DNA of 64,000 nucleotides, taken from the NCBI RefSeq assembly GCF_025917005.1, contig NZ_CP078091.1:1302001-1366000 (forward strand), read 5' to 3'. The number at the start of each line of letters is the position of its first letter. Position 1 is the stretch's first letter. This DNA comes from Porphyrobacter sp. ULC335 (GTDB lineage: Bacteria > Pseudomonadota > Alphaproteobacteria > Sphingomonadales > Sphingomonadaceae). The notes below the pieces were generated by a model that did no database searches, was not told where the DNA came from, and worked only from the letters and a program-made list of their open reading frames with translations. The position numbers and the translations under genes were made by a program. Below, in pieces: positions 7,611-53,312 of this stretch.

Positions 7611-7628
7611 AGAGGGAAAAGACACGAC

Positions 7629-8813
7629 ATGGACCGCCGCGAAAAACTGATGGCCCGCGCAAGGCAGGGCTACCGGCTTGCCTACGGGGCAGAGCCGACG
7701 CACTTTTTTGCGGCGCCGGGCCGGGTGAACCTGATCGGCGAGCATGTCGATTACAATGATGGCTATGTCCTGCCCTGCGCAATCGACCGCGAGGCGATCG
7801 TGGCGCTTGGCCCGGCGGACAGGGATGACCCGGTGCCGCGCTTCGAGGCTGTCGCGCTCGATATGGGCGAAATGGCCAGCGCGCGGGACAGCTTCGATCT
7901 GGTCGGCCCGATTCGGCAGGGCGAGAATAACTGGCAGAACCACGTGCGCGGGGTGATCCAGGCGCTGGGACGCTATGGCCACCGGGTCAAGCCGGCGCGG
8001 ATCGCGATTGCTGGCGACGTGCCGATCGGCGCGGGGCTTTCCTCCTCGGCGGCGTTCGGCGTGGCGGTGGCGCTGGCCTGTTCGGAACATTCGGGGCTGG
8101 GGCTTTCGCCGACCATGCTCGCCAAGGTGGCGCAGATTGCCGAGAATGATTTCGTCGGCTGCGCCTGCGGGATCATGGACCAGATGGCATCGGCGGCGAG
8201 CGTGGCGGACCATGCGCTGCTGCTCGATTGCCGGACGCTGGAACACATGCCGATCCCGGTCCACCCGAGCCTTGCCATCACGGTGATCGACACCGGCATC
8301 CGCCGCAGTCTGACCGAGAGTGCATTCAACCAGCGCCGCGCCGAATGCGAGGCAGTGGCGGCGCATTTCGGGCTGAAGGCCCTGCGCGATCTCGATTGGG
8401 CCACGCTTGAGGCGGCGCAGGATTCGCTCGATCCCACGCTCTATCGCCGCGCGCGGCACGTGGTCGGGGAAATCCAGCGGGTCGAACCGGTCGGCACGGC
8501 GCTGGCGCAGGGCGACACGGCTCTGCTGGCCGAGGTCATGCGCGAGGCGCACCTGTCGCTCTCAGCGGATTTCGATGTCTCGCTGCCGCAGATTGACCGG
8601 CTGGCGGCGTTGATCGCGGAAGGGCTGGACGATGCGGGCGGCGTGCGGCTGACGGGGGCAGGCTTTGGCGGCTGTCTGGTCGCCGTCACTGCCCATGATG
8701 CCGCCCCCGTTATCGAAGCGGCTGTCGCGCTCTACAATACCGGTGCCGATCTGCCCGCCCGGACCGAGACGTTCCGGCCGATCAGTGGGGCAGCGGCGAT
8801 CAGGATTGACTGA
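7629..8813 (+). CDS. galK: Galactokinase
   Basis: 394 aa GHMP-family kinase that phosphorylates galactose at C1 with ATP. The galactose signature GRVNLIGEHVDYNDGYVLP is near residues 27-45, the ATP loop is GAGLSSSAAF (about 137-146), and the third GHMP motif is RLTGAGFGGCLVA near the C-terminus. GAGGG precedes the ATG at suitable spacing. It is the last gene of the rightward galactose operon. Confidence 0.96.
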   Translation: MDRREKLMARARQGYRLAYGAEPTHFFAAPGRVNLIGEHVDYNDGYVLPCAIDREAIVALGPADRDDPVPRFEAVALDMGEMASARDSFDLVGPIRQGENNWQNHVRGVIQALGRYGHRVKPARIAIAGDVPIGAGLSSSAAFGVAVALACSEHSGLGLSPTMLAKVAQIAENDFVGCACGIMDQMASAASVADHALLLDCRTLEHMPIPVHPSLAITVIDTGIRRSLTESAFNQRRAECEAVAAHFGLKALRDLDWATLEAAQDSLDPTLYRRARHVVGEIQRVEPVGTALAQGDTALLAEVMREAHLSLSADFDVSLPQIDRLAALIAEGLDDAGGVRLTGAGFGGCLVAVTAHDAAPVIEAAVALYNTGADLPARTETFRPISGAAAIRID

Positions 8814-39342: not shown

Positions 39343-40466
39343 CCACCAACCGCTTCCTCACCACCCACGTCGGCAGCCTGCCGCGCCCCGAAGCCCTGCT
39401 CGATCTGGTTTTCGCGCGCGAAGGCGGCGAGGCGGTGTCCGAGGCTGATTTCGATGCCGCCGTGGAAGCGGCCACGGCCTATGTCATCAAGCGCCAGATC
39501 GAAGCCGGGGTCAGCATCGTCAATGATGGCGAGCAGTCCAAGCCCAGCTACGCCACCTATATCAAGCACCGCCTGTCAGGCTTTGGCGGGGAGGCGGGGC
39601 AGTATGAATTCGCCGATCTGGAAGCCTTCCCCGGCGCCAAGGCCCAAGTGTTCGGCAACAAGGGCCGCGCCAAGCGTTCCGCACCCGCCTGCACCGCGCC
39701 CATCACCGTGATCGACATGGAAGCCCCGCGCATCGATGCCGAGCGATTGGTGCGCCTCGCGGATGGCCACGCCACCTTCATGTCCGCCGCATCGCCGGGC
39801 GTCACCGCACTGTTCTTCCCCAACCAGTACTACGCCAGCGACGAGGAATATGTCTTCGCCCTCGCCGAAGGGCTGCGCCACGAATACGAGACCATCGCGG
39901 CCGCCGGGATCACCTTGCAGGTCGATTGCCCCGATCTCGCGATGGGCCGCCATGTGCAGTTCACCGACCTGAGCCTTGAGGAATTCCGCAAGCGCATCGG
40001 CATGAACATCGCCGCGCTCAATCACGCGGTGCAGAACATCCCTGCCGAGCAACTGCGCATGCATCTGTGCTGGGGCAATTACCCCGGCCCGCACCATTGC
40101 GATGTCGCCTTGGGAGAGATCGCCGATATCGTCTGGACGGCCAAGCCGCAGACCGTGCTGATCGAAGGCGCCAACCCGCGCCACGCGCATGAATTCGTCT
40201 TCTTCGAAACCAACCCGCTGCCCGATAACAAGGTGCTCTGTCCCGGCATGGTCGAACCGCAGAGCCCCTATATCGAGCACCCCGAACTGATCGCCCAGCG
40301 CATTGGCCGCTACGCCGATCTGCTCGGACGCGAGCGGGTGATGGCGGGGGTCGATTGCGGCTTCTCGGTCCATGCGGGCAGCAATGCGCTCGATCCCGAA
40401 ATCGTCTGGGCGAAGCTTGCCGCGCTCGCCGAAGGGGCAGAGATCGCCAGCGCCAGGTATTTCTGA
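39339..40466 (+). CDS. MetE-like (cobalamin-independent methionine synthase II family) zinc methyl/alkyl transferase
   Basis: 375 aa, about half of MetE. It corresponds to the catalytic C-terminal barrel, a family that also holds epoxyalkane:coenzyme M transferase and archaeal MetE. Opening FLTTHVGSLPRPEALLD. Zinc ligands as in MetE are H and C of MHLCWGNYPGPHH, E of IEGANPRHAHEF and C of AGVDCGFSVH. Because a complete MetH pathway is 25 kb upstream and this gene is in a catabolic operon, it more likely demethylates or alkylates a degradation intermediate than makes methionine. Confidence 0.82.
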   Translation: MTTNRFLTTHVGSLPRPEALLDLVFAREGGEAVSEADFDAAVEAATAYVIKRQIEAGVSIVNDGEQSKPSYATYIKHRLSGFGGEAGQYEFADLEAFPGAKAQVFGNKGRAKRSAPACTAPITVIDMEAPRIDAERLVRLADGHATFMSAASPGVTALFFPNQYYASDEEYVFALAEGLRHEYETIAAAGITLQVDCPDLAMGRHVQFTDLSLEEFRKRIGMNIAALNHAVQNIPAEQLRMHLCWGNYPGPHHCDVALGEIADIVWTAKPQTVLIEGANPRHAHEFVFFETNPLPDNKVLCPGMVEPQSPYIEHPELIAQRIGRYADLLGRERVMAGVDCGFSVHAGSNALDPEIVWAKLAALAEGAEIASARYF

Positions 40467-40525
40467 CCGGCTTTTCCCCCGCCGCCGCTTGCCGACAGCG
40501 CAGCGGCGGCGCTAACACTGCCGCG

Positions 40526-41497
40526 ATGGACGCAATCATCCGCCCGATCACCGTGCAAGCGCTTATGGTGCGCGGCGGTGTCGTCACCGAAATCGGGCCG
40601 GGTGATGTGGCGAATTTCACCGGCCCCGGCTTTGTCTGGCTCCATGTCGAGGGGGTGGGCCACGGCGAGTCGATGGACTTGCCCGACTATGTCCCGCCGA
40701 TGGCCGCGAACGCGCTGGTGGCAAGCGAGACCCGCCCGCGCTGCGACGAGGTGGATGACGCGGCGCTTATCAACCTGCGCGGCACGGCTGTCGATACGAT
40801 GCAGGACAGCGACGGGCTGGTCTCGATCCGCGTCTGGGTGGAAGGACAGCGCGTCACCTCGGTCAGCCGCCACCGCATGGCCGCGCTCGCCAAGGTGGAA
40901 AGCGCGATGCGTGCCGGTCGGCTGACCGACGGGGGCGATTTCGTGGCGGCCCTGGCGCAGGCGATCTCGGTCCAGCTCGATCCGCAAGTCGCCGATCTGG
41001 GCGACAGCCTCGACGATTGCGAGGGCATGCTCGACGGCGGGGACATCTATGCGCTGCGGCGCAAGATCGCCGCGATCCGCTCGCAGGCGATCGTGCTGCG
41101 CCGCTTCGTCGCCCCCGATCGCGATGCGCTGGCGGAAATGGCCCAGCTCGAATTCGACTGGATCAGCAAGGAAGACCGGATGCACCTGCGCGAGGCGGCG
41201 GACCGCTTTGCCCGCATGGCCGAAGAACTGGAATCGGTGCGCGAACGTGCGGCGCTGCTCCACGAACAGCTCACCGATCTGCGTGCCGAAAAGATCGACC
41301 AGCGCAGTCTGGGGATCGCGGTGACGGCGTTCATCTTCCTGCCGCTGACCTTCGTGACCGGGCTGCTCGGCATGAATGTCGAGGGCATCCCCTATGCCGG
41401 CCACCCGTGGGCGTTCTGGGGAGTGGTTGCGTTCTGCCTCATCATCGCGCTGATCGTGATGGGCTGGTTCGCGTGGCGCCACTGGCTTGAGGATTAG
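40526..41497 (+). CDS. CorA/ZntB-family divalent metal transporter
   Basis: 323 aa. A cytosolic N-terminal alpha/beta domain is followed by a long helix and two C-terminal membrane segments. The GMN pore motif is in VTGLLGMNVEGIPYAGHP. By family it transports Zn2+ or Mg2+. ZntB-like length. The gene follows the MetE-like gene by 59 bases but its function need not be linked. Its stop codon lies in the GGGGTCTA-type repeat. Confidence 0.9.
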   Translation: MDAIIRPITVQALMVRGGVVTEIGPGDVANFTGPGFVWLHVEGVGHGESMDLPDYVPPMAANALVASETRPRCDEVDDAALINLRGTAVDTMQDSDGLVSIRVWVEGQRVTSVSRHRMAALAKVESAMRAGRLTDGGDFVAALAQAISVQLDPQVADLGDSLDDCEGMLDGGDIYALRRKIAAIRSQAIVLRRFVAPDRDALAEMAQLEFDWISKEDRMHLREAADRFARMAEELESVRERAALLHEQLTDLRAEKIDQRSLGIAVTAFIFLPLTFVTGLLGMNVEGIPYAGHPWAFWGVVAFCLIIALIVMGWFAWRHWLED

Positions 41498-41577: not shown

Positions 41578-42996
41578 CTAAGCCCGCACCATTTGCGCAA
41601 GCCGGGCATAATCGACCTTGGAACGGTGGCGGCGGTCAAGCGGGATGGATTTGAGCGGCATGGTCCGTTCCACGCCAAGCCGTGCTGCTGCCTTTTGCCA
41701 GTCGGGAAGGTGCACCGGATCACCCTCGATCGCGAGGCAGGATTGTCCCTCCAGCCCGCACAGCGCTGCGCGGCGGACCCCCGGCCAACTGCGCGCGGCC
41801 GTCTCGATGGCGAAGGGCCAAAGCCCCCCGATCCGCCCCTGCGTCCGGCCCAGCAGCCACAGCCGCCCCTCGGCATCGAAGCGCCCGCCATCGCCGGTGC
41901 GGTGCCAGACGGTGCCGTGTTCGTCGCGCGTTTTGGTCGCGGCATTGTCGGCAGGATCGACATAGGTTTCAACGACATGCGAGCCTGCGACAAGGATCTC
42001 GTCATCGACAATCCGCACCCGCACCGCCGCCACGGGAGGGCCAGCCAGCAGGCCTTCCCCCGCAGCGATCCGGGCGCGGTCGGCAGGGGCGAGGGCGCTG
42101 ACCTCTAGCTCGGCAATCGGCTCGGCCTCGGTCGAGCCATAGACCGCCATCACGCGGAGGGCGGGGTTCTGCGCCGTCAGCCGGTCGACCACATCGGGGA
42201 ACACCGGACCGCCGCCGGTGAACAGCGTGGTGACGCTGGCTGGCAGCGGCGCATCGGTGAGCGCCTCGGCCAGCACGGGCGGGAGCAGCAGGCGGGTGAC
42301 GCCCTGCCGGGCGCAATGCTGGCGTATCGCCTCAGGCCGGGCGCGGTCGGGACGGCGCAGCGGCCAGTTGGGCAGCACAGAAGTCACTCCGCTGCCGAGA
42401 TTGGCGAGGACGAACACGGGAAAGGCAACCAGATCAACCTCTTGCCGGTCGCTCGCCAGCAATGGTCCCACCGCACGATTCTGCGCGGAGAGGAAGCCGT
42501 GGCTACGCAGGATCGCCTTGGCCCGCCCGGTCGATCCTGAGGTGAAGCTCATCAGCGCGGGGTGGTCGTCCGGCCAGTCGGGCGAAAGCTCCGTGCCGCG
42601 CAGCATTCCGCCTTTCAGCGGCAGGCGCGGCACCGCAAGCAACCGCGGCACCAGCAGTGGCAGCACCCTGAGCATCCCCGCCCCGATCCACGCCTTCACG
42701 TCAGCCGCAGCAAGCGCGGTCCTGACGCCCTTCAGCCCCATCGCAGGCTCCGGAAGCACTGCCACCGCCCCCAGCCGCCACAGCGCGGCGAGCGCGGCGT
42801 AGAGATCGGGCGTCACCCCCATCGCGATCAGCACCCGGTCGCCCGGCCCGATCCCGCGCTTGGCCCACTCGTCGGCCAGGAACCCGGCGCGGTGATAGAG
42901 GTCTGTAAAGCTGACACTGTGCCCCTTGCTGTCGATGATCGCAGGCCGATCCCAATGGGCGGCAACAGCAGCGTCAAAGGCGGCGAGGATCGTCAA
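41578..42996 (-). CDS. AMP-forming acyl ligase, OleC-like (ANL superfamily)
   Basis: 472 aa. Adenylation loop MSFTSGSTGRAKAILRSHG (about 149-167), VYGSTEAEPIAEL, and WHRTGDGGRFDAEGRLWLL near the hinge; a catalytic Lys fits the C-terminal HRSKVDYARL. The segment VAFPVFVLANLGSGVTSVLP followed by a proline-rich loop resembles OleC, the beta-lactone synthetase of olefin biosynthesis, more than acetyl-CoA synthetase. The start is a TTG that overlaps the GNAT stop (TTGA). It is the last gene of the seven-gene operon and may activate a hydroxy or fatty acid. Confidence 0.82.
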   Translation of the reverse strand: MTILAAFDAAVAAHWDRPAIIDSKGHSVSFTDLYHRAGFLADEWAKRGIGPGDRVLIAMGVTPDLYAALAALWRLGAVAVLPEPAMGLKGVRTALAAADVKAWIGAGMLRVLPLLVPRLLAVPRLPLKGGMLRGTELSPDWPDDHPALMSFTSGSTGRAKAILRSHGFLSAQNRAVGPLLASDRQEVDLVAFPVFVLANLGSGVTSVLPNWPLRRPDRARPEAIRQHCARQGVTRLLLPPVLAEALTDAPLPASVTTLFTGGGPVFPDVVDRLTAQNPALRVMAVYGSTEAEPIAELEVSALAPADRARIAAGEGLLAGPPVAAVRVRIVDDEILVAGSHVVETYVDPADNAATKTRDEHGTVWHRTGDGGRFDAEGRLWLLGRTQGRIGGLWPFAIETAARSWPGVRRAALCGLEGQSCLAIEGDPVHLPDWQKAAARLGVERTMPLKSIPLDRRHRSKVDYARLAQMVRA

Positions 42997-43814
42997 GCGG
43001 GGCGGTGCCCGAACAGGGTGTAGCGCCGGAACACCTCCGCCCCGTGCTGGCCGCTCCGCACCAGCGAGACATTGTCGGCGTGCATCAGCGCGTGGATCAC
43101 ATGGGTGCAGCCCAGCCCCCGCGCTGCCTCGTGGAAATGGTGCGCCAAAAGGTGCCCGATCCCGCGCCGCACCCCCGCATAGGTCTTGAGCACAGCGCGG
43201 GTCGGCATGGCCGGATCGCGGTAGCCGAGCAGGAAGCCGACGATACCGTCCCCCTCCCGCGCCAGAAACACCAGCCGCGGATCGAGCAGCGGGAGCAGCG
43301 GCAGGTAGAGGCCGAGGAACTGCTCGCGCGTGATTGCTTTGAAGAACTGCTTGTCCGCGAAAGACCCGCCCGCAAAGGCGAAGACCTGTTCAAGCAGCGG
43401 CTGCGCATCCTTGCCGTCCCACGGTTCGACCGTGATCCCTTCGACCGGAGCGGGCTCGGCCTGCGGGGTGTCGAGCGCCAGGCGGGTCGAGGCGTAGTGC
43501 GCGACCGGTTCAAAGCCCGCCAAGGCCAGCGCTTCGGCCACATGCGGATGGGCGGCGGGCTCCAGCAGGAAGGCGGGGCTACCGTCACTCTGCGTCACCG
43601 TGCGGTAGGCGTGCCAGGTGTCGCCATCCATCGGCGCAAGCACCGGGCGCCCGCCTGCCCGGACCAAAGCCTCGGCCAGCAGCGCCGCACCGGCGGCGGG
43701 GTCGTCAAAGGCTAGCGTTCCCAGTGCCACCGCAGGGACCCCGTCCCAGGCCGGGCCGTCGTTGTAGAACCGCAGGCTCGCGCCCTTGGCGCGCATCTCG
43801 TCGAAACCGCTCAT
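42993..43814 (-). CDS. GNAT-family acyltransferase-like protein
   Basis: 273 aa with two GNAT-like halves. The N-terminal half lacks a clear CoA loop. The C-terminal half has FLLGYRDPAMPTRAVLKTYA then VRRGIGHLLAHHFHEAAR, a plausible acetyl- or acyl-CoA pyrophosphate loop, and NVSLVRSGQHGAEVFRRYT. The start is the ATG in the ATGA overlap with the upstream kinase-like gene. In an operon with an acyl ligase it could transfer an acyl group onto an amine or hydroxyl of a lipid; this is inference. Confidence 0.75.
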   Translation of the reverse strand: MSGFDEMRAKGASLRFYNDGPAWDGVPAVALGTLAFDDPAAGAALLAEALVRAGGRPVLAPMDGDTWHAYRTVTQSDGSPAFLLEPAAHPHVAEALALAGFEPVAHYASTRLALDTPQAEPAPVEGITVEPWDGKDAQPLLEQVFAFAGGSFADKQFFKAITREQFLGLYLPLLPLLDPRLVFLAREGDGIVGFLLGYRDPAMPTRAVLKTYAGVRRGIGHLLAHHFHEAARGLGCTHVIHALMHADNVSLVRSGQHGAEVFRRYTLFGHRPA

Positions 43815-45109
43815 TGCATCCCCAAGGTTGCGAAATAGGCCGCGAAGGGCACCAGATTGGCCGCAACTCCCAGTCGCGGGGCGCGCCAGCGGTCGAACCA
43901 TGCGGTGCGCGTCAGCACCAGCGCGGTGACCAGCAGCAGGCTCACGCCCGCTGCCAGCGGCAGGTGCACCGACTGGAGCGCATGGCCGGGAGCGAGCCCC
44001 AGCAGCCCGACATAGCCAGCCACCGCCAGCGCTGCGAGCGCAACGCCCGCCACGATCCTGCCGTGGGTCGCCACCAGCAGCAGCCCCAGCGCCATCCCCG
44101 CCATGCCGAGATTGTAGAAATTGAGCGCGCTCGCCCCGATGGTCTCGCCAACGAAATACCAGATCAGCGCCGCACCGCAGAGGGTCGCGATGAAATCGAG
44201 ATCGCTGTGCGGGCTGGCACAGGGCCGCCGCCGGGCAAGCAGGTGCGCGCCCATCGCCAGCATCGGCACCGCCGCGCCGTAAGGCCCGCCCGCGCCCAGG
44301 AACAGGAAAATCGCGATCACGAAGGCGCGGCTGGCATGAACCGACAGCGCCAGCCGCCGCGCGATCAGTGCCACCGCGATCACCGCCACGCCGAATTGCA
44401 AGCCGATCAGCGCGAGCTCCACCGGTGCTGCAAAGAGGTAGCCCTTGATGAAGAATTGCAGGCAGATCGGCACGAACAGGTTATCGAGCCCGCGCCAAGA
44501 GACTGCCTCGACAATCGCGCCGAACGCCGCAATCGCCAGAGCGAGCACCACCACGTTCACGCGCGGGGCATCGGTCAGCAGCAGCAGCATGGTCATCGCC
44601 ACGATCACGCTGACCATGAAGAAGGCGACCACCCCCTCCCAGCTTTTCACCCCGTCCTCGACAGCAAAGCGGCTGCGGCCATAGGCGCTGCCGGTCAGCG
44701 CGGCGGCGGTATCGGAAAGGGTGATGATTGCGAGCGGCAAGGCGTAGTAGATGTATTCGCCGCCCGATTGCAGGAACACGAAGCCGATGGCGAGCGCCAG
44801 CCAGATATCGCCGAGCGATCGCCGCTCGACCGCGTGGATCGCCTTGCCGAGGCCGCTGGTGCGCACCTGCGGCAGACGCAGCCAGCCCATCAGCGCGAGC
44901 GCGATCAGCAGCAAAGCCACCACCGGCCATGCGGCATCGAACATCAGCGGCAGGGCCATGGCATAGAGGCCGATGGCGACGTGAATGGTCTTGCGGCTGA
45001 CCTCTGCGTGCCAGCCAAAGCGCTCGCCCGCGTAACGCACGGCGGCGATCACGCCCATCAGCAGCGCGACCGATCCGGCGAGCAGTGCCAGGCTCAGCGC
45101 GATGCTCAA
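43811..45109 (-). CDS. Phytol/dolichol kinase-like polytopic membrane protein
   Basis: 432 aa, about 12-14 hydrophobic segments. It carries SRKTIHVAIG (38-47), the Arg-Lys-x-x-His-x-x-x-Gly motif of phytol, farnesol and dolichol kinases, and SDTAAALTGSAYGRSR then VKSWEGVVAFF, matching the CTP-binding part of that family. By family it phosphorylates isoprenoid alcohols with CTP. The start is a TTG overlapping the previous stop. The C-terminal half (from about residue 220) is extra relative to plain phytol kinase and is all membrane. Confidence 0.8.
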   Translation of the reverse strand: MSIALSLALLAGSVALLMGVIAAVRYAGERFGWHAEVSRKTIHVAIGLYAMALPLMFDAAWPVVALLLIALALMGWLRLPQVRTSGLGKAIHAVERRSLGDIWLALAIGFVFLQSGGEYIYYALPLAIITLSDTAAALTGSAYGRSRFAVEDGVKSWEGVVAFFMVSVIVAMTMLLLLTDAPRVNVVVLALAIAAFGAIVEAVSWRGLDNLFVPICLQFFIKGYLFAAPVELALIGLQFGVAVIAVALIARRLALSVHASRAFVIAIFLFLGAGGPYGAAVPMLAMGAHLLARRRPCASPHSDLDFIATLCGAALIWYFVGETIGASALNFYNLGMAGMALGLLLVATHGRIVAGVALAALAVAGYVGLLGLAPGHALQSVHLPLAAGVSLLLVTALVLTRTAWFDRWRAPRLGVAANLVPFAAYFATLGMQ

Positions 45110-46194
45110 GGCAAAACCTCGTCAACATGGAAGGCCGAGTAGAAGAACGCCTGATCGCGCGCGGCAAGCGGCGCGGCGATATCGGGACGGGGCTGGACGC
45201 GCGGGGCGTATTCGGGCGGCATGGCGCGCGGGGCCATCATGTTCCAGTAGACGAGCCGCGCACCCGGGTTGGAGGCGGAAAGGATGGCGCCATAGGCTGC
45301 GCGGAATCCCTCGGGCGACATGTATTCGAAGATGTCCGAGAGGTTCCAGCCATCGACACCGCCGCTGGCCGCTTCCTCCAGGGGGCCGAGGTGGAGGCGG
45401 ATACGACCCACCCGCTCGGCAATGGTTGCATGATGCTCCGCCCGCCATGCGAGCGGCAGGGCAGGGCCGTGCGTGCCGGTCAGCACATAGCGCAGGTAGG
45501 GATTGGCGACCGGGTCATTGGCGACGAAGGCATGCTCGATGCGCCGTGCGACATGGTCTGACACGCTGCCATCCACCTGATCGAAGAACGCCGGATCGCG
45601 GCCCAGTGCGCCCATCGCGGTCCGCGAGAAGAACGCCTTGAGCAGCCAGCGCCAGCGCCAATTGTTCCAGCGCTTGGCGAGGAAGCGTGCGCGATCGGCT
45701 TGGTCGCGCGGCTCGAACACCGCTTCGACGGTGCGGCGGGAATGGACGAAGGGAAGCAGGCGGCGGTGGAACAGGCGGAAGTAACGTTCAAACTTGCCGA
45801 CCCCGCCCGCGCCGTGGGCGATCACTTCAGGGCGCAGCGCGGCCCAGAAGGCGGCGGTTTCGGCGTCGCATTCTGCCAGCACCCGATCGAGCAGCGCGCC
45901 TCTCCGCGAGGAGGGGGCCGCGCCAAGCAATTCGGTCAATTCGGCATGATCCAGCAGCGGGAAGGCCGTCAACCGCAGCTTCAGGCACGCGAGCTGCGCG
46001 GGCGACAGGTCGGCGGCGATCACCTCGGCCGGATCGCACAGCAGCATCGCCAGCGCATTGTCGCCTGCCGAGCAGATCGACACCAGCCGCCCGCCGGGGC
46101 GCGGGCCGATGGCGTTGACCAGCACATCGGCATCTTCCCACAGCTGGGCATAGCGGATGTGATCGAAGGCGGCCTTGGTGGCAATCTCGCTCAT
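45106..46194 (-). CDS. DUF3419 protein, BtaA-like SAM:lipid 3-amino-3-carboxypropyl transferase
   Basis: 362 aa, normal for BtaA-like proteins. IRYAQLWEDADVLVNAIG (13-30) and the SAM loop VSICSAGDNALAM (38-50), followed by IAADLSPAQLACLKLRL, are family hallmarks. NLSDIFEYMS and NPGARLVYWNMMAPR complete the Rossmann fold. BtaA moves the aminocarboxypropyl group of SAM to diacylglycerol in betaine-lipid synthesis. There is no btaB methyltransferase beside it, so the acceptor here may be a different hydroxyl. Confidence 0.85.
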   Translation of the reverse strand: MSEIATKAAFDHIRYAQLWEDADVLVNAIGPRPGGRLVSICSAGDNALAMLLCDPAEVIAADLSPAQLACLKLRLTAFPLLDHAELTELLGAAPSSRRGALLDRVLAECDAETAAFWAALRPEVIAHGAGGVGKFERYFRLFHRRLLPFVHSRRTVEAVFEPRDQADRARFLAKRWNNWRWRWLLKAFFSRTAMGALGRDPAFFDQVDGSVSDHVARRIEHAFVANDPVANPYLRYVLTGTHGPALPLAWRAEHHATIAERVGRIRLHLGPLEEAASGGVDGWNLSDIFEYMSPEGFRAAYGAILSASNPGARLVYWNMMAPRAMPPEYAPRVQPRPDIAAPLAARDQAFFYSAFHVDEVLP

Positions 46195-48602
46195 GCTTTG
46201 CTCACCCTGCCGGTTGCGCCGTCCACGGTCAGGCTTTCCCCGTCCACGATCCACCGCGTTGCATCGGAAAGCCCGACGACGCAGGGAATACCCAGCTCGC
46301 GCGCAACGATGGCGCTGTGTGACAGCAGGCTGCCGCGCTCGACCACGATGGCGCCCGCGCTGGCGAACAGCGCGATCCATCCCGGATCGGTGTGCCGCGC
46401 CACCAGTATCTCGCCCGCCGCGATGCTCTGCCCGCGCGGGTCAGCGATGACGCGGGCGACCGCGGTGATGGTGCCTGCGGACGCGCCGGTGCCGGAGCGG
46501 GTGCGTTCATCGCTGGTGGCGGCTTGCGGCGCAGCGAGGGTCGCGGCAGCGCAGGCGGGGCCTTCGGTGATGATACGTTCGGGCGGGTCGGGCAGGGCAG
46601 CGGCGCGCTCCATTTCGCGGCGGCGCACTTCGGCGAGGCCTGCGAGATCGGCGGTGACACCGAAGCCCTCGATCGCGCCGAGCACTTCGGGCAGGGTCAG
46701 CAGGAACACGTCGCGCGGTGCACCGATGAGGCCCATCGCGTGAAACTGCGTGCCCATCGCCAGCAGCACGCGGCGCGCGCGGCCGAAGATACGGGTGCGC
46801 TCGTACCGCAGGTTCTCGCGGTCGCGCACGCGGTCCTTCGCCCAGCGCACCAGCCAGCGGGCAACGCGGCGTTTGACCGGTTTGCCCTTGAGCGCGCTGT
46901 CGAGCCGTGCCCAAGCATCGCCGCGTTCGGGCGCGGGGCCATGGCGGCTGCGCGCGGCGGCGGCAATGGCGGCGAACAGCGGGGTGGGGTCTTCGTCGAG
47001 CGTGACGCTTTCCAGCTTCAACTCCTCGGTGCAGCGGTCGCCGAATTCGGCGATGTAGCCCGCGACGCCCGGCGCGATGGCGCTGGCCTCCACGCCCGCG
47101 CGGTCCTGCGCATCGAGCGCTTCGAGCAGCGCCGCATCGTCCCGCGCGGTCTCTCCCATGGCGCGGATCAGCTGAGCGGGGCGGGCCGAGATGATGTCGC
47201 CTTGCCCGATCAGCACATCATTGAGCGCCGCCGTGCCCTCGGCCCCCGCCCAGTTCTCGAGCGCTTTGCGCGCCGCGCCAAAGGCAATCATGCACAGGAA
47301 ATCATTGACGATCGGCGCGTCCCAGCGGTCGAGCAGGTCGGCCTCGATCCGGCGGTATTCCGCCGCGAGTTCGGTGAGCGACAGGGTTGCCACCCGCTCG
47401 GGCGTGGTCGCCGCCAGCGCCCGGTCGAGCCGCTTGCGAAACAGTGCCGACGTTTCGGGCAGAGCGCGCGACGCCCGCCACAACCGCCACGCCGAACGGG
47501 CCATGCGGACATATTCGCGGAAGCGCTGGGGCTGGCCATGCTCGATCTGCCCCAGCAGCCGTTCGGGCAGGGGGGCGCTTGTCCCCATCATCCCGTCCAT
47601 GAAGCCGCGGTTGAGGCTGTATCCCGGCAGCATCGCCAGCGCGCGGTGCCAGTTGCCGAGGTTGTAATAGACCCGCCCCTCGATGCGGGAGAGCATGTTC
47701 TCGAACACCACCCGCTCGGCACGGATGCGTTCCGGCTCCACCCCTAACAGAGCCACGAAGGCCATATAGACCCGCGCATAGGCGTAGCTGGCGAAGGAGA
47801 AGGTTAGCGGGGCGACGATGCCGGGATAGCTCTCGACGATGTTCGAATTGTCGAACACCATGAAGCCGGGGTCGGCCAGCGGCGCGGGGCGTAAGGGGGA
47901 TGTGATCGGGCGGCTTTGCAACAGGTAGAGCTGCCCTTCGGCAAAGGCCCATTCGATATCCTGCGGCCCGCCGAAAGCGGCTTCGGCGGCGAGGCATAAT
48001 TCGGCGACTTCGCGCACCTGAGCCGGGGTCATCCCTTCGCCTTCGCCGGTGGTAGCGACCACCTCCAGAGCAGGGCGCGCCAGCCACCAGCCGCTCCCGT
48101 CGACCTCGCCTGCCACCAGCCGGTCACCGAGGCCGCGCGTGGCTGACACCACAACCCGGTCGCGGCGGCCCGCCACCGGGTCTGCGGAGAAGGCGACGCC
48201 GGCGTGATCGGCCGGGATCATGCGCTGTACCACCACGGCGGGTGGCGCGCTTTCGGCAATGCCCCGTTCGCTGCGATAAGCGGCAAGGCCCTCGCCAGCG
48301 CCCGATGCCGCAACCTGCGCGATCGCGTCGGCAACCGCTCCAGCGGGGACATTCAGCAGGCTTTCGAACTGACCGGCGTGGCTCGCTTCGGCCCCGTCTT
48401 CCGCCAACCCCGATGATCGCACCGCGTAAGGCCCCGGACCGAGTGTTTCGAGCGCATCGGCCAGTGAGGCCGGATCAGGCATCCCGCCCGAGGGCACGAC
48501 AAAGAACGGCGGCACGGCAAAGCCCGCCGCGCTCGCCCGGGCCAGCGCTTGGCCCTTGCCCCCCGCTCCCGCCGTGTTGGCCGCCGCCCCCGCAAGGATC
48601 AT
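46191..48602 (-). CDS. PEP synthase/rifampin-phosphotransferase-like dikinase
   Basis: 803 aa. N-terminal ATP-binding domain: GAGGKGQALARASAAGFAVP, YAVRSSGLAEDG, VVVQRMIPADHAGVAFS and DIEWAFAEGQLYLLQSRPIT. C-terminal swivelling domain: GSLLSHSAIVARELGIPCVV with the phospho-acceptor His at about 762. There is no PEP/pyruvate-binding TIM barrel after it, so the order (ATP domain, large middle domain, His domain) is that of rifampin phosphotransferase, which phosphorylates a small molecule. The ATG overlaps the UbiA stop. The middle domain (about 300-700) probably binds the operon's product or precursor. Confidence 0.86.
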   Translation of the reverse strand: MILAGAAANTAGAGGKGQALARASAAGFAVPPFFVVPSGGMPDPASLADALETLGPGPYAVRSSGLAEDGAEASHAGQFESLLNVPAGAVADAIAQVAASGAGEGLAAYRSERGIAESAPPAVVVQRMIPADHAGVAFSADPVAGRRDRVVVSATRGLGDRLVAGEVDGSGWWLARPALEVVATTGEGEGMTPAQVREVAELCLAAEAAFGGPQDIEWAFAEGQLYLLQSRPITSPLRPAPLADPGFMVFDNSNIVESYPGIVAPLTFSFASYAYARVYMAFVALLGVEPERIRAERVVFENMLSRIEGRVYYNLGNWHRALAMLPGYSLNRGFMDGMMGTSAPLPERLLGQIEHGQPQRFREYVRMARSAWRLWRASRALPETSALFRKRLDRALAATTPERVATLSLTELAAEYRRIEADLLDRWDAPIVNDFLCMIAFGAARKALENWAGAEGTAALNDVLIGQGDIISARPAQLIRAMGETARDDAALLEALDAQDRAGVEASAIAPGVAGYIAEFGDRCTEELKLESVTLDEDPTPLFAAIAAAARSRHGPAPERGDAWARLDSALKGKPVKRRVARWLVRWAKDRVRDRENLRYERTRIFGRARRVLLAMGTQFHAMGLIGAPRDVFLLTLPEVLGAIEGFGVTADLAGLAEVRRREMERAAALPDPPERIITEGPACAAATLAAPQAATSDERTRSGTGASAGTITAVARVIADPRGQSIAAGEILVARHTDPGWIALFASAGAIVVERGSLLSHSAIVARELGIPCVVGLSDATRWIVDGESLTVDGATGRVSKA

Positions 48603-49528
48603 CCGAAGGCCGCTCCCGCAAACGGCGCAAAGCCTGCTGCGCCGTAGCAGGCAAACACCCACAGGCCCGAGGCATCCTCCAGCGCCTTGGCTCGCTCCGG
48701 CGTAGCCTGCGCGCGGTAACGCAGCGCTGCTCGCACGGCATAGACCACCGCGACCAGCCCGATCCCGCCCGTCAGCCATGGCGTCCGCGTCGCCCAGCCA
48801 ACCGCGAGCAGCAGCGCAAGCGCCGCCATGAGGCACGCCAGCCACAGCACCGCGCCCCGCGCGGGGCCGAGGATACGGCTGTAACTATCCACCCCCTCGC
48901 GCTCGCTCTCCGGCGCCCACAGCTTGCGCCCGATCTCCAGCACGCAGCCATTGGCAAAGCTGAGGAACAGGAACAGCCACAGCCCCGCTGGCGGGGTGCC
49001 GTGCGGCGTCCACTCGACCCCGGTGATGACGAGGTCGATCAGCGGCATCACCGCCATGTGGCTGACCAGATAGGCAAAGGCCCGCGCCTTCAGCCAGTCG
49101 GCCACGAAGAACTCGAAGCTCATCAGCGTCATCCACAGCCACGCTGCGCCGAGCAGTCCCAGCAGCAGCAGCGGGCCGACCGACAGCGCGGCCAGCGCGG
49201 CGACGGCGGCGCTTGCGATGCCGAGCGCGATGATCGTCTCCAGCCGCACCAGTCCGCGCGGGATCGGGCGTTCGGGGCGGAAGCGGGCGTCGTCTTCCTT
49301 GTCCTTGATCTCGTCGAGCACCCGCAACTGGAAGAAGAAGGCGAGTGTGATGACGAAAGCGGCGAGATAGGCGGCCAGCGGCGGGGCGCCGCGCCCGGCA
49401 AGGTGCGCCGAAACACTGACGCTCGCGCCTGCAAAGACGGCGCAGAGCACGGCGGTCTTGCCGAGCGGGAAGCGTTCGGCCTGATAGGTCCACAGGCGGG
49501 CGGGCAGGGAGGGGCGGGCGGTCGCCAT
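48599..49528 (-). CDS. UbiA-family membrane prenyltransferase
   Basis: 309 aa with about 8-9 hydrophobic segments. First Asp-rich motif LDEIKDKEDDARFRPERPIPRG (split: DEIKDKEDD at 72-80, then RPIPRG). The second motif is weaker: EIGRKLWAPESE then GVDSYSRILG. By family it attaches an isoprenoid diphosphate to an acceptor in the membrane. It does not look like BchG or UbiA proper from these blocks. It lies three bases after the HMGR-like gene. Confidence 0.85.
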   Translation of the reverse strand: MATARPSLPARLWTYQAERFPLGKTAVLCAVFAGASVSVSAHLAGRGAPPLAAYLAAFVITLAFFFQLRVLDEIKDKEDDARFRPERPIPRGLVRLETIIALGIASAAVAALAALSVGPLLLLGLLGAAWLWMTLMSFEFFVADWLKARAFAYLVSHMAVMPLIDLVITGVEWTPHGTPPAGLWLFLFLSFANGCVLEIGRKLWAPESEREGVDSYSRILGPARGAVLWLACLMAALALLLAVGWATRTPWLTGGIGLVAVVYAVRAALRYRAQATPERAKALEDASGLWVFACYGAAGFAPFAGAAFG

Positions 49529-49531
49529 GCG

Positions 49532-50800
49532 TCAGCCGCGCGTCCGGGCGAGCTTATGGTGCGCGCTGGTGAAGACCCCGCTGGCAATCGCCGCCATGAT
49601 CGAGATTTCGCCAGCAAGACACAGCCCCGCGGTCACTTCCGCAAGCGCCCGCGCCTTGCCGCTGCCCGCAAGGCCCATCAGGTCGAGCGCTGCGCGCTGG
49701 TGCGGCATCCCCGTTCCGCCGCCCACCGTGCCGACCATCAGGTTGGGCAGGGTGACGCTCATGAACAACGCGCCGTCCGCGCGCGCCTCCATCCGGGTAA
49801 AGCCGACGGCGCTCTCGGCCACGCAGGCCGCGTCCTGCCCGGTAGCGATGAACAGCGCGGCGAGGCCGTTGGCAAAATGCCCCTGCGCGCCGATCTGGCC
49901 TGACAGCGTCGCGCCCAACTGCGCCACCCGCGCATAGGCAAGCATGGTTTCTGCCGACGTGCCAAGCGTGCGGCGGATCACCTCTTCGGGCAGGGTGACG
50001 CTAGCGGACACCTTGCGCCCGCGCCCGCCGATCAGGCCCAGGTAACTCGCCTTCTTGTCGCCCGAGAAATTGCCCTCGATGAACCAGTGCAGCGGCTTCA
50101 CCGGTGTGTGCGCGATGATCCAGCGGCACAGCGCATCGGTAGCGATGGTGACCATGTTCTGCCCGGATGCATCGCCGGTGGTGTAGCGGCAGACAAGGAA
50201 CACGGTGTCGCTGTCGATCATCGGCTCGATCGATTGCAGGCGGCCGTGGCGGGTGGTGGCGTGCGCGGCGGCGGCCAGCTCGGCTTCATGCTGGGTAGCC
50301 CAGGCGACAAAGCTTCCGGCTTCGGCCAGCGAGGTAAAGACGAAGGCGGGCGCGCGGGCGACATTCTCGCCCAGCAGCGCCGCGCTCGTCCCGCCGGCCT
50401 GATTGATGGCGTGCGCACCGCGTGCATAGGAGGCGACCAGCGCCGCCTCGCTAGTGGCAAGCGGTAGCCAGTAATCGCCCGATGCATGGAGGCCGTTGAC
50501 CCGCAGCGGCCCCGCCACGCCCAGCGGCAGGGCGGTCATGCCGATCGGATTTTCGATATTGCCCGCGCATTGTCCGAGCGCGGCGAGCGCCTCTTCGCTG
50601 GCAATTGGCCCCGTCGCTCCGGTGCCTGCATCGGCCCACCATTGGCGGATCGCATCGGGATCAATCCCGCGACGGACGGTGAAGCGCTTCGTCCCCGCCG
50701 TGCCCGCACCGCCAAGCCGCGCGCTCAAGGCGTCTGCCGCACCGGCACCCCCCAGCGATTCGATGAAAGCCAGCAGACGCCGGGGAAACAACACACTCAT
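49532..50800 (-). CDS. HMG-CoA reductase-like protein, class I type
   Basis: 422 aa, the length of soluble class I (archaeal-type) HMG-CoA reductase. All four catalytic residues align: E118 in LATSEAALVAS, K249 in FSGDKKASY, D323 in IATGQDAACVAES, H414 in TSAHHKLAR. ENPIGMTALPLGVAGPLRVN, TTGDASGQNM (NAD(P)-binding) and GTVGGGTGMPHQ also match. By family it reduces HMG-CoA to mevalonate. Alphaproteobacteria normally use the MEP route, so this first gene of a seven-gene operon is unexpected. The start is uncertain: ATG at 50800 is preferred, a GTG 27 bases upstream is possible. Confidence 0.85.
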   Translation of the reverse strand: MSVLFPRRLLAFIESLGGAGAADALSARLGGAGTAGTKRFTVRRGIDPDAIRQWWADAGTGATGPIASEEALAALGQCAGNIENPIGMTALPLGVAGPLRVNGLHASGDYWLPLATSEAALVASYARGAHAINQAGGTSAALLGENVARAPAFVFTSLAEAGSFVAWATQHEAELAAAAHATTRHGRLQSIEPMIDSDTVFLVCRYTTGDASGQNMVTIATDALCRWIIAHTPVKPLHWFIEGNFSGDKKASYLGLIGGRGRKVSASVTLPEEVIRRTLGTSAETMLAYARVAQLGATLSGQIGAQGHFANGLAALFIATGQDAACVAESAVGFTRMEARADGALFMSVTLPNLMVGTVGGGTGMPHQRAALDLMGLAGSGKARALAEVTAGLCLAGEISIMAAIASGVFTSAHHKLARTRG

Positions 50801-50955: not shown

Positions 50956-52434
50956 TTATGCCCCGACGAACACCCCGTGAAAACTGATCGGCAGCGCGAC
51001 ATCGGCGCGCCAGCTTGCAACCGGGCCAGCTGCCACATCGCCAGCACGAAGCAGATGCAACTCGCTCACACCGGCTTTCAGATTGAGGGTTGATCCGATC
51101 AGCCAGCCATCGCCTTCGCGCGCGCTTTTGCCTGGTGCATACTGGAACTCCTCCACGAGCTGATGTTCCCCGAAGTCGAAGCTGTCCGCGCGCCCGCGTT
51201 GCCAGTCCCAGGTGGCGATGCCGTGGGGAAAGGGTCCGTTGTCGTCATATCCCGTCACATGGACGGTCAACTGGTGCGGCTGCTGCGCGCGGCGCAGGTC
51301 GCTGGCCGGGAATTCCGCCGCGATCCCTGTGGTTTCAAGCGCGGCCTTTCCGTCGGGGTAGAGCACGATCTGCTGCAGCACGGGACGCGGCGCGCGGATA
51401 TATTCCCCGCGCAGCATGGCGCTGGCGCTGGTCTGGCCGAAGGTCGGATCTGCCTCGATGCAGCCGGCAAAGCGGATGGTGCCATCGGCCTCCTCCCAGC
51501 CATCACCATAGTGGAAGGCGCTGAAGGCCGGCAGCTCGTAGATGCGGCGCTGGCTCAGATCGTCCTTGGCGACGACCAGGATCTGTGTGCCAAGACCGGG
51601 CTGCCATTCCATCGTGGTGCTGATCGGAAAGCCGCCGCGGGTTTGCAGCCACGGTTGCAGCACGATCACGATGTGCCGTGCGGTGATGGTGAAGTCATGG
51701 AAATAGCTGGCGCGCGGCAGTGGCAGCACGGCAAAATCAATCAACCGCCCGTCCGCGCCGAGATGCCAAAGTCCCGTCACCCGCCCATTGCCGCCGAAAT
51801 TCCAGACCGAACCGTCAGCCTCTATCCGCGGGTGAGCGGAAAACGGCATATGACGAAGATCGTCGCGGAAGGTCTTGATCCCCGCGGTCAACAGGCTTTC
51901 CGGGTCGAGCTGCGTCGCCGATCCGCCCTCCCAAAGGGCCAGCAGTTCGCCGCCGAGCATCATCACACTGGTGTTGGCAGCGTTGGTATCATCGTTGTTG
52001 TTGATGGTCGCTCCTTCCCCGACAGGCGTGCCGAAGCCGGGCATCACGATCCGGTCGAGCCGGGCTTCCTGCCGCCGTTTGGGCGTATCGGCGAAACGTG
52101 CGGCGAGGCTCGCGCGGCCGTCGGCAACCCGGAACCGCCGGATCAACCCGTCCCCGTCGAACCAGTGGCCCGCGCTCGATCCGCCGCGCCGGAATTTGGC
52201 GGGGCCGTTGCGGTAGAGGGTGCCTGCGAAATCTGTCGGCGCACGGCCCGCAATCTGGGTCAGGGTGCGCGGCGCGATATCGGCCTCGACATCGGCGACT
52301 CCCAACGCCCAAAGCGCAGGCGCTGACCCGGCCAGCGCCCGTTCGGGGGTGATGACCGCGCTGGCTGCCGCGGCGGCCAGGAGCGACTGGATGAAGCGGC
52401 GGCGGTCGAGCGGGGAAGAAGGCAAGCTGGTCAT
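50956..52434 (-). CDS. Exported carotenoid oxygenase (retinal pigment epithelial protein family)
   Basis: 492 aa. Twin-arginine leader RRRFIQSLLAAAAAS at the N-terminus suggests Tat export, unusual for this family. Iron ligands are the four His at about 201 (SAHPRIEADG), 246 (SYFHDFTIT), 308 (FSAFHYGDGWEE) and 486 (SFHGVFV). By family it cleaves carotenoids, or stilbenes in the lignostilbene branch, at a double bond. AGGAG precedes the ATG. The HMGR operon follows 155 bases downstream on the same strand and the DUF2141 gene is 25 bases upstream. Confidence 0.9.
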   Translation of the reverse strand: MTSLPSSPLDRRRFIQSLLAAAAASAVITPERALAGSAPALWALGVADVEADIAPRTLTQIAGRAPTDFAGTLYRNGPAKFRRGGSSAGHWFDGDGLIRRFRVADGRASLAARFADTPKRRQEARLDRIVMPGFGTPVGEGATINNNDDTNAANTSVMMLGGELLALWEGGSATQLDPESLLTAGIKTFRDDLRHMPFSAHPRIEADGSVWNFGGNGRVTGLWHLGADGRLIDFAVLPLPRASYFHDFTITARHIVIVLQPWLQTRGGFPISTTMEWQPGLGTQILVVAKDDLSQRRIYELPAFSAFHYGDGWEEADGTIRFAGCIEADPTFGQTSASAMLRGEYIRAPRPVLQQIVLYPDGKAALETTGIAAEFPASDLRRAQQPHQLTVHVTGYDDNGPFPHGIATWDWQRGRADSFDFGEHQLVEEFQYAPGKSAREGDGWLIGSTLNLKAGVSELHLLRAGDVAAGPVASWRADVALPISFHGVFVGA

Positions 52435-52459
52435 TGATCGTGCTCCTGCGCCAGGCCGG

Positions 52460-52963
52460 TTACCGGAATGAAATCGTCTGCACGGTGGGCCCGGCAATCT
52501 CGAACGCGGCGGCATCCCATGTGGCAGGCCCCATGTTCCCGACCGCGTTGTTGGAGAAGGCAAAGGGTTCGATCGGCATCCCGAACGGGTTGGTGTTCAT
52601 CTTGCCGTCGGCGTTCACATCATGGAGGATCTTGAACCCGTAACGCCCCGGAGCGACATCGGCGATCGTGGCCGTGACGGTGTCTCCGGTGACCGCAATG
52701 GCGATCGCCCGGACCGGAGCCTTGCCGCTGTCATAGGCATCCTTGCTGTCGAACAGAGCCAGCATGATCTGGCCGGTCGGGCTGGCAAACCGGGTGAAGT
52801 TGATCTGGAGCGTCGTGGCGCCGGCGACCGGGCTGCCGCGTTCCGCATCGGCCTGCGCCACCGTCGGAGCAGGCGGAACGGCGTCCTCGGCAGCGAGGCG
52901 AGGGGTGTGGATCAGCAGGGCAAGGCCGATAACAGCGGAGATGGTGGTGTTTGAACGGGTCAT
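52460..52963 (-). CDS. DUF2141 domain protein, exported
   Basis: 167 aa. Signal peptide MTRSNTTISAVIGLALLIHT with cleavage near RLAA. DUF2141 signature: GQIMLALFDSKDAYDSG, then VAPGRYGFKILHDVNADGKM and NPFGMPIEPFAFSNNAVGNM. A beta-sandwich of unknown role, often found near carotenoid or lipid genes. AAGGA before the ATG decides the start. It lies 25 bases upstream of the carotenoid-oxygenase gene in the same direction, so they are likely co-transcribed. Confidence 0.85.
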   Translation of the reverse strand: MTRSNTTISAVIGLALLIHTPRLAAEDAVPPAPTVAQADAERGSPVAGATTLQINFTRFASPTGQIMLALFDSKDAYDSGKAPVRAIAIAVTGDTVTATIADVAPGRYGFKILHDVNADGKMNTNPFGMPIEPFAFSNNAVGNMGPATWDAAAFEIAGPTVQTISFR

Positions 52964-53080
52964 GGCAAGCGTTCCTTCACATGCGGTGGTTGATGACGAT
53001 TGCCGTCTGCCGCCCGCCGCAGTGCCGCGCCATCGCAGCTTCGCAATGTGCAAGGATCCTTCGCCAAATGCGGAGACAAA

Positions 53081-53103
53081 CCATTTCACGCTGCGTGAAA
53101 TGG
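53081..53103. promoter_or_regulatory. Perfect 23-bp palindrome, arms CCATTTCACGC
   Basis: Eleven-base arms around a single T with no mismatch, 117 bases upstream of the DUF2141 gene. It has no T-run, so it looks like a protein-binding site for the DUF2141/carotenoid-oxygenase transcript rather than a terminator. No protein gene was found in 52964-53312. Confidence 0.6.
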
Positions 53104-53312
53104 CCATTGCGCTTCGTCAGCTGGTCGTCCGGGAAGGTCGGAAAGGCGATGTCACCCCTTGCTCTGCCGATGAGGCGTCACGAATCCGCCCAAGGTATGT
53201 TGACCAATCCCGTGTCATCGTGGCAATGGGCGACCGCATCTTGCCAAGCGGCGCAAAACGAAGCGCAGTCCGGTACACGCCGGACCGAAAATCCAGAGCT
53301 TTGCAGATCAAT

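Follow-up and report, generated by a model that had tools for sequence, protein, structure and literature searches.

A conserved seven-gene operon in Porphyrobacter sp. ULC335 that combines a predicted FcrA-type reductase with UbiA, dikinase, DUF3419 and GNAT proteins and probably makes a lipid

What product would call for an enzyme of the 3-hydroxy-3-methylglutaryl-coenzyme A (HMG-CoA) reductase (HMGR) fold, a UbiA-family transferase, a dikinase, a DUF3419 (BtaA-like) protein, a kinase-like membrane protein, a GNAT acyltransferase and an AMP-forming ligase, all encoded by adjoining genes? The question is raised by a stretch of 64,000 nucleotides of Porphyrobacter sp. ULC335 (contig NZ_CP078091.1, positions 1,302,001 to 1,366,000), hereafter called the window. 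An initial annotation, made from the letters alone, had proposed an operon for a modified isoprenoid or lipid that could not be matched to a described pathway. The results described below uphold one co-evolving operon for which we, too, could find no described match, whereas they do not support the isoprenoid part of the proposal. We are nearly certain that the seven genes constitute one pathway, and its product is probably a lipid.

The open reading frame (ORF) check of the window returned seven minus-strand ORFs between positions 41578 and 50800, with ends exactly as first described, transcribed in the order HMGR-like, UbiA, dikinase, DUF3419, kinase-like, GNAT and AMP-ligase. Only 3 bases separate the HMGR stop codon from the UbiA ATG, and the remaining junctions are 4-base overlaps: ATGA for UbiA/dikinase (48599-48602), ATGA for dikinase/DUF3419 (46191-46194), TTGA for DUF3419/kinase-like (45106-45109), ATGA for kinase-like/GNAT (43811-43814) and TTGA for GNAT/AMP-ligase (42993-42996), so that the junctions given in the initial annotation were exact when read on the strand. 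Five of the seven genes lie above the curated Pfam cut-offs, for HMG-CoA_red, UbiA, PPDK_N together with PEP-utilizers, DUF3419 and AMP-binding.

The seven genes are not a chance neighbourhood. Scanning one genome per species with a two-row UbiA alignment yielded 57 loci, and 50 of these show the full set of seven on one strand in the window's order. Of the seven exceptions, four (L018, L047, L058 and L060) are truncated by contig ends, the visible part of each showing the expected order, L068 is cut downstream and shows no HMGR match upstream, L069 has all seven genes in a rearranged order, and L071 (Leptolyngbya) has only HMGR-UbiA-dikinase of the seven. One further copy is plasmid-borne: in Roseinatronobacter sp. 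S2 (Rhodobacterales) the six downstream genes have the window's order, at 40-58% identity to the window, and an HMGR-like gene upstream of them spans the start of the record. The initial annotation had argued against a chance neighbourhood and had named an order conserved in no relative as what would speak against it; across the loci, the order proved to be conserved. Overlapping copies at the six junctions, taken in order, number 47, 42, 48, 46, 45 and 46 of 48 loci, with start codons chosen by script and with L017 and L023 (in full order, but each having a broken or cut gene) and the plasmid excluded. When the proteins of the 48 full loci plus the window are compared pair by pair, the distances in the seven families correlate with one another at 0.84-0.96, and the seven genes therefore travel together.

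Most hosts belong to Rhodobacterales; the others are sphingomonads, Neomegalonema and bins assigned to Rhizobiaceae (one), to unclassed Alphaproteobacteria (two) and to the gammaproteobacterial Granulosicoccaceae (one). Strain-named carriers include Roseovarius nubinhibens ISM, Thalassococcus halodurans DSM 26915 and Erythrobacter ramosus JCM 10282. Distribution of the operon is patchy. Among 298 genomes sampled from its family, the window's UbiA turned up in a single one, the window's own genome, and in the class-level sample a strong match occurred in 1/385 genomes, in addition to one of 59 bits (G479) and seven of lower score. The operon is nevertheless carried by the near relatives Erythrobacter ramosus and two Porphyrobacter, so that such samples overlook carriers. 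Of 295 genomes in the family to which Roseovarius nubinhibens belongs, 16 score at least 400 bits for UbiA, three of them (G681, G683 and G685) already known as carriers, and 13 others score 18-30 bits.

The same set reaches the cyanobacterial phylum, where the kinase-like alignment matches 138/281 genomes, nine of them at 150 bits or above, the next score being 112; among the matches listed, the lower-scoring ones are mostly proteins of 220-280 residues. One of the nine strong carriers (G1246) is represented only by two pieces cut at contig ends. The cluster-type HMGR (more than 600 bits) is present in 4/292 genomes of the phylum, and all four are among the nine; the probability of four out of four falling within 9/281 by chance is about 5e-7 under independence of genomes, an assumption not true here. 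In the remaining five (L201-L205), the genes for UbiA, dikinase, DUF3419, kinase, GNAT and ligase follow one another as in the window, at 28-41% identity. Their genomes measure 1.8-2.3 Mb, with 31-33% G+C in the stretches examined, and in size and G+C they would resemble the non-photosynthetic Vampirovibrionia. Elsewhere the set is split: in the cyanobacterium G1041 one contig holds DUF3419-kinase-GNAT-ligase while HMGR and UbiA lie on a second, Leptolyngbya keeps DUF3419 and the kinase-like gene apart from its HMGR-UbiA-dikinase group, and G479 has dikinase-DUF3419-UbiA together and no kinase-like match. From these arrangements, the operon seems to consist of two modules, fused in the alphaproteobacterial form, and HMGR seems to be the member most often missing.

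Table 1. The seven genes of the operon, in order of transcription, with window positions and the principal basis of each assignment.
Predicted product	Position	Strand	Basis
HMG-CoA-reductase-fold enzyme, probably FcrA-type	49532-50800	minus	ATG at 50800; PF00368 360.6 bits
UbiA-family integral membrane transferase	48599-49528	minus	PF01040 48.2 bits (cut-off 34.2)
Dikinase without phosphoenolpyruvate-binding domain (ATP-grasp and phospho-His domains)	46191-48602	minus	PF01326 and PF00391, no PF02896
DUF3419/BtaA-like S-adenosylmethionine-dependent 3-amino-3-carboxypropyl transferase (predicted)	45106-46194	minus	PF11899 181 bits
Membrane protein of the CTP-dependent lipid-alcohol kinase/cytidylyltransferase superfamily (predicted)	43811-45109	minus	AlphaFold fold; PF01148 in a homologue
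Tandem-GNAT acyltransferase	42993-43814	minus	AlphaFold model, fold comparison
AMP-forming acid:CoA-ligase-type enzyme (fatty-acid CoA ligase family)	41578-42996	minus	PF00501 128.1 bits

The initial annotation had assigned the first enzyme to isoprenoid precursor supply, and its residues argue otherwise. When the cluster copies are aligned to human and methanogen HMGR (human numbering), the catalytic Glu559, Lys691, Asp767 and His866 are kept in all 55 copies, including the window's. Ser684 is gone in every copy (Glu in 54, Asp in one), as is Lys735 (Ala in 54, Gly in one), and Leu862 is replaced by Phe in 55/55, whereas three other bacterial HMGRs (L104-L106) have both Lys735 and Ser684. According to PMC9500038, Lys735 forms a salt bridge with the carboxylate of HMG, with Ser684 acting as a conserved polar contact. 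The altered positions recall FcrA, a fatty acyl-CoA reductase of the HMGR fold (Grossi et al. 2025, PMC11948995), for which that paper describes an acidic residue at 684, a small one where the HMG-binding lysine would stand and a bulky one at 862, the last being Trp in the N. pharaonis enzyme. That lysine is printed there as Lys795; we read it as Lys735, because the aligned residue 795 of human HMGR is Cys and PMC9500038 gives Lys735.

The wider genomes agree with the loss of the HMG contacts. By TIGR00533 the window's protein reaches 306.8 bits against a cut-off of 441.8; HMG-CoA synthase was found in none of the 11 carrier genomes searched, and neither was a mevalonate kinase above the cut-off, matches below it occurring in three (the window's genome, G678 and G687). 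An assignment of the enzyme to mevalonate synthesis is accordingly rejected. GalT-like and galactokinase-like ORFs, named by reading, lie side by side at window positions 6054-8813 on the plus strand, and the window's weak mevalonate-kinase match is explained by the latter (7629-8813), for which reason it was discarded as a pathway member. The use of mevalonate as an acyl group, in the manner of SidI/SidF, was likewise dropped in light of FcrA (PMC11948995). FcrA shares with the window's enzyme the fold, the Glu/Lys/Asp/His set, the three altered positions and a genomic setting without HMG-CoA synthase, and differs from it in having Trp rather than Phe at 862, the window's enzyme moreover belonging to a seven-gene operon; the paper's main text contains none of the words 'Rhodobact', 'Vibrio', 'Sphingo' or 'gene cluster'. 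Taking these features together, the window's "HMGR" is very probably an FcrA-type reductase rather than an HMGR. In PMC13001223, Streptomyces having HmgR beside a full methylerythritol phosphate (MEP) pathway are flagged as needing study.

In a quick tree, which holds no FcrA reference sequence and has two rows with long branches, the canonical Lys735-bearing HMGRs part from all Lys735-less ones with 95% support (SH-like approximate likelihood ratio test, SH-aLRT), and the cluster reductases group with copies from cyanobacteria and from one proteobacterial genus (100%). The latter copies, FcrA-like by residues (Asp/Glu684, Thr/Asn735 and Phe862), come from eight genomes (L087-L094), presumably of Vibrio to judge from the neighbouring genes. 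In one of the four such loci examined, an ordinary pyruvate phosphate dikinase is encoded 5 kb from the HMGR. Further Lys735-less homologues occur in the cyanobacterial phylum (L120-L126), L120-L125 having EKK for the catalytic-loop DKK.

The key residues of the other six proteins are invariant in an alignment of 49 rows (48 loci and the window), in which one dikinase row is gapped at the His. UbiA prenyltransferases possess two Asp-rich motifs, NDxxDxxxD and DxxxD. The cluster protein departs from this canonical pair, its first motif being DExxDxxxD and its second, metal-binding one being altered to ExxRK...E, each in 49/49. His762 of the dikinase is present in 48/48 ungapped rows. The best PDB sequence matches of this protein, 5fbs and 5hv1, are tabulated as phosphoenolpyruvate synthase, and we take both to be rifampin phosphotransferases (Rph). 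With Rph the dikinase shares the ATP-grasp domain, the long middle domain, the phospho-His domain and the absence of a phosphoenolpyruvate-binding domain; however, the NCBIfam Rph model, whose cut-off is 999, gives it 214.6 bits, and the likeness is thus one of layout and not of the named enzyme.

The DUF3419 match stands far above its cut-off of 28.2 bits, and a phmmer search of the PDB with the cluster protein returned no match. BtaA works with the N-methyltransferase BtaB. The cluster protein has the DUF3419 domain with S-adenosylmethionine-binding residues, as does BtaA of the betaine-lipid (diacylglyceryltrimethylhomoserine, DGTS) pathway, but no BtaB accompanies it, no methyltransferase family being found by Pfam among the seven operon genes. 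The window's genome holds a second, stronger DUF3419 gene with an adjoining methyltransferase gene (G000:C1:2153618-2155536; L176:5618-7536, minus strand), to whose DUF3419 product the cluster protein is 25% identical. Because the methyltransferase gene lies directly beside it, this second gene fits btaAB, and the two are probably btaA-btaB for a betaine lipid. In seven of the nine other proteobacterial carriers searched, the single DUF3419 match is of the cluster type by score.

The kinase-like protein of the window has no Pfam match, and PF01148 was found in 0/54 proteobacterial members, the window's included, at E values up to 5, nor does any other Pfam family recur consistently among them. 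The operon homologue in L201, in contrast, passes PF01148 (CTP_transf_1) at 24.6 against 24 bits. In the AlphaFold model (mean predicted local distance difference test, pLDDT, 87.9), residues 19-225 best match the fold of CDP-diacylglycerol synthetase (4q2g; Z 8.7, root-mean-square deviation (rmsd) 4.5, 164 residues aligned). This is a modest match for a helical protein, the ranks from the second onward (Z 7.6) being ion-pumping pyrophosphatases, and Foldseek gave no match at E 0.001. We predict that the protein belongs to the superfamily of CTP-dependent lipid-alcohol kinases (phytol and dolichol kinases) and cytidylyltransferases, to which it is linked by the modest fold likeness of its N-terminal half and, in a homologue, by PF01148, and from which it differs by an extra C-terminal membrane half of about 200 residues and by the missing PF01148 of the proteobacterial members. 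The N-terminal half also scores with proteins of about 240 residues in many cyanobacteria, which we take to be phytol kinases; the one protein of this kind that was scanned (L200) has no Pfam match, leaving that name unsupported. The BtaA-like and kinase-like labels of the initial annotation hold at the family level and at nothing finer.

The GNAT label fared differently by method, as the Pfam sequence profile stays below its cut-off (16.9 versus 20.7 bits) and a profile search against PDB sequences gave weak matches only, whereas the AlphaFold model (pLDDT 93.0) is a clear tandem GNAT. Its three best chains reach Z 17-19 over 228-241 residues, the nearest folds being MAB_4324 (7q3a; Z 18.7, rmsd 3.3, 241 aligned) and mycothiol synthase (2c27; Z 17.4), and Gly218 and Gly220 are present in 49/49. 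Wherever a locus shows the GNAT and AMP-ligase genes complete, the two adjoin. The ligase, with Lys460 in 49/49, scores 253.6 bits by NCBIfam PRK09274, under the cut-off of 478. Of the two functions that had been offered for it, acid activation stands. Beta-lactone formation is rejected as the named function, since the two OleC models lie far under their cut-offs (144.9 versus 900 and 116.4 versus 850 bits); the protein shares the AMP-binding family with the olefin beta-lactone synthetase OleC, but the OleA, OleB and OleD families are missing from the seven genes.

Around the cluster, a sulfotransferase (PF13469) and cytochrome P450 pair occurs in 15 of the 57 loci (e.g., L042:6278-8661, minus strand), a lower bound because short flanks would hide it in some loci. 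In 14 loci the pair is divergent upstream of HMGR, and in L059 (17988-20392, plus strand) it comes immediately downstream of the ligase, in the same orientation; these two placements argue for a link with the cluster. A different P450-like gene lies a short way downstream in L051 and L055 (Pfam run on L051). A fusion of MFS, PlsC and AMP-ligase parts, about 1150 residues long, stands beside the operon in 3 of the 70 sequences searched, namely L020 (5198-8653, plus), L201 (12261-15731, minus) and L202 (8844-12314, minus), of which the last two are near relatives and L020 is of an unrelated lineage (Pfam run on L020 and L201). In the window itself, a carotenoid oxygenase of the RPE65 family (50956-52563) and a DUF2141 protein (52460-53107) are encoded upstream of the operon on the same, minus strand; they do not travel with the cluster, the sole match in the loci searched being one of 32% in L016. 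On the plus strand, an ORF at 40355-41497 that ends near the 3' end of the operon is CorA/ZntB metal transporter-like, with a GMN motif recognized by eye.

Starting from the genes, their order, conservation and co-occurrence and the active-site residues as observed, we predict the reactions, their sequence and the product as follows. The AMP-ligase would activate a fatty acid to acyl-CoA, which the FcrA-type reductase would convert to a long-chain alcohol. The DUF3419 enzyme would then transfer the 3-amino-3-carboxypropyl group of S-adenosylmethionine onto a lipid hydroxyl to give a homoserine-type ether, and the tandem GNAT may use acyl-CoA to acylate the amine so introduced. The CTP-dependent kinase-like protein, the dikinase and UbiA would phosphorylate a lipid alcohol and attach a further group, and in some roseobacters the product may be hydroxylated and sulfated by the P450 and sulfotransferase. 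The proposal that the operon is dedicated to an aminolipid of the membrane or storage type, with a fatty alcohol as its building block, is in our estimate evenly poised between acceptance and doubt, and N-acylation of the aminocarboxypropyl group by the GNAT is proposed tentatively. A fatty acyl reductase and a fatty-acid ligase are used together also in ElbD-type ether-lipid synthesis, according to PMC11948995; the pairing is shared, whereas the operon lacks the multidomain ElbD and has DUF3419, UbiA, dikinase and GNAT proteins instead.

Several points weigh against this aminolipid proposal. The order of the steps is a guess, and the UbiA protein is hard to place in a fatty-alcohol pathway. 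The assignment to the FcrA type rests on residues and on separation in the tree, because the tree contains no FcrA reference sequence; the cluster reductases form a clade apart from the bacterial group with Trp862, of which five of nine members keep Ser684, and they have Phe862 against the Trp reported for N. pharaonis FcrA. None of the other six genes was found near the FcrA-like HMGR in the four loci of the presumed Vibrio genus (L168-L171), and two genomes of that genus have no kinase-like protein at all. Furthermore, the five six-gene genomes of the cyanobacterial phylum have no HMGR adjoining the operon, and none appeared in the phylum-wide HMGR search.

In an alternative route, a long-chain or prenyl alcohol would be phosphorylated twice, by the kinase-like protein using CTP and by the dikinase using ATP, for UbiA to transfer the allylic diphosphate chain to an acceptor, with the reductase supplying the alcohol where present. 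Reductase, kinase, second phosphotransferase and UbiA would then form a complete chemical series, in keeping with the HMGR-UbiA-dikinase module of Leptolyngbya and with the similarity of the kinase-like N-terminal half to the 240-residue cyanobacterial proteins (putative phytol kinases), and operons without the reductase would salvage an alcohol. This diphosphate route is nevertheless unlikely, since the second Asp-rich motif of UbiA reads ExxRK throughout, a saturated alkyl diphosphate would not ionise, and the scanned 240-residue protein has no Pfam match. A bolder version, to which we give distinctly less credence, has the HMGR-fold reductase act on acyl-CoA or 2-enoyl-CoA, the alcohol being raised to a diphosphate by the CTP kinase and dikinase as a "false prenyl" donor for UbiA and joined to an acceptor bearing the N-acylated aminocarboxypropyl group; the outcome would be a lipid without a glycerol backbone and with no described counterpart, spread over roseobacters, sphingomonads and the cyanobacterial phylum.

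The patchy distribution (1/298 and 16/295 genomes in the two families sampled), the one plasmid copy, the optional tailoring by P450 and sulfotransferase and the ABC-transporter ATPases (a very common family) near 21/59 loci would also suit a small secreted natural product, such as a signal, antibiotic or pigment, in place of a membrane lipid. We regard this, too, as improbable, for the two membrane enzymes and the fatty acyl-CoA reductase type point to a lipid, and neither a carrier protein nor a thioesterase was seen by eye among the 40 largest neighbour families. A wax-ester or acyl-amide storage lipid, in which the GNAT joins the alcohol from the reductase to the acyl-CoA from the ligase, would suit the adjacency of ligase and GNAT in the loci that show both complete, but leaves UbiA, dikinase, DUF3419 and kinase without a role. 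GNAT enzymes are not known to be wax synthases, and we hold this very unlikely even though PMC11948995 links FcrA to wax esters. Least credible of all is the isoprenoid route, in which a genuine HMGR would provide mevalonate for a modified isoprenoid: similarity by Pfam and TIGR00533 and the retained catalytic residues are consistent with it, and the replacement of Lys735 and Ser684 in every copy, the score below the TIGR00533 cut-off and the failure to find HMG-CoA synthase, or mevalonate kinase above its cut-off, in the 11 carrier genomes searched speak against it.

Searches of the open-access full-text literature, a scope outside which most subscription papers and preprints fall, turned up no described pathway matching the gene set. 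Each of its enzymes comes from a known superfamily. The seven-gene order extending from Alphaproteobacteria to a gammaproteobacterial bin, together with the six-gene core in the cyanobacterial phylum, is a strong sign of a selected pathway. If the lipid reading is true, the operon would define a new bacterial lipid class, made by enzymes that profiles name as of the cholesterol, quinone and betaine-lipid types, and such annotations may mislead.

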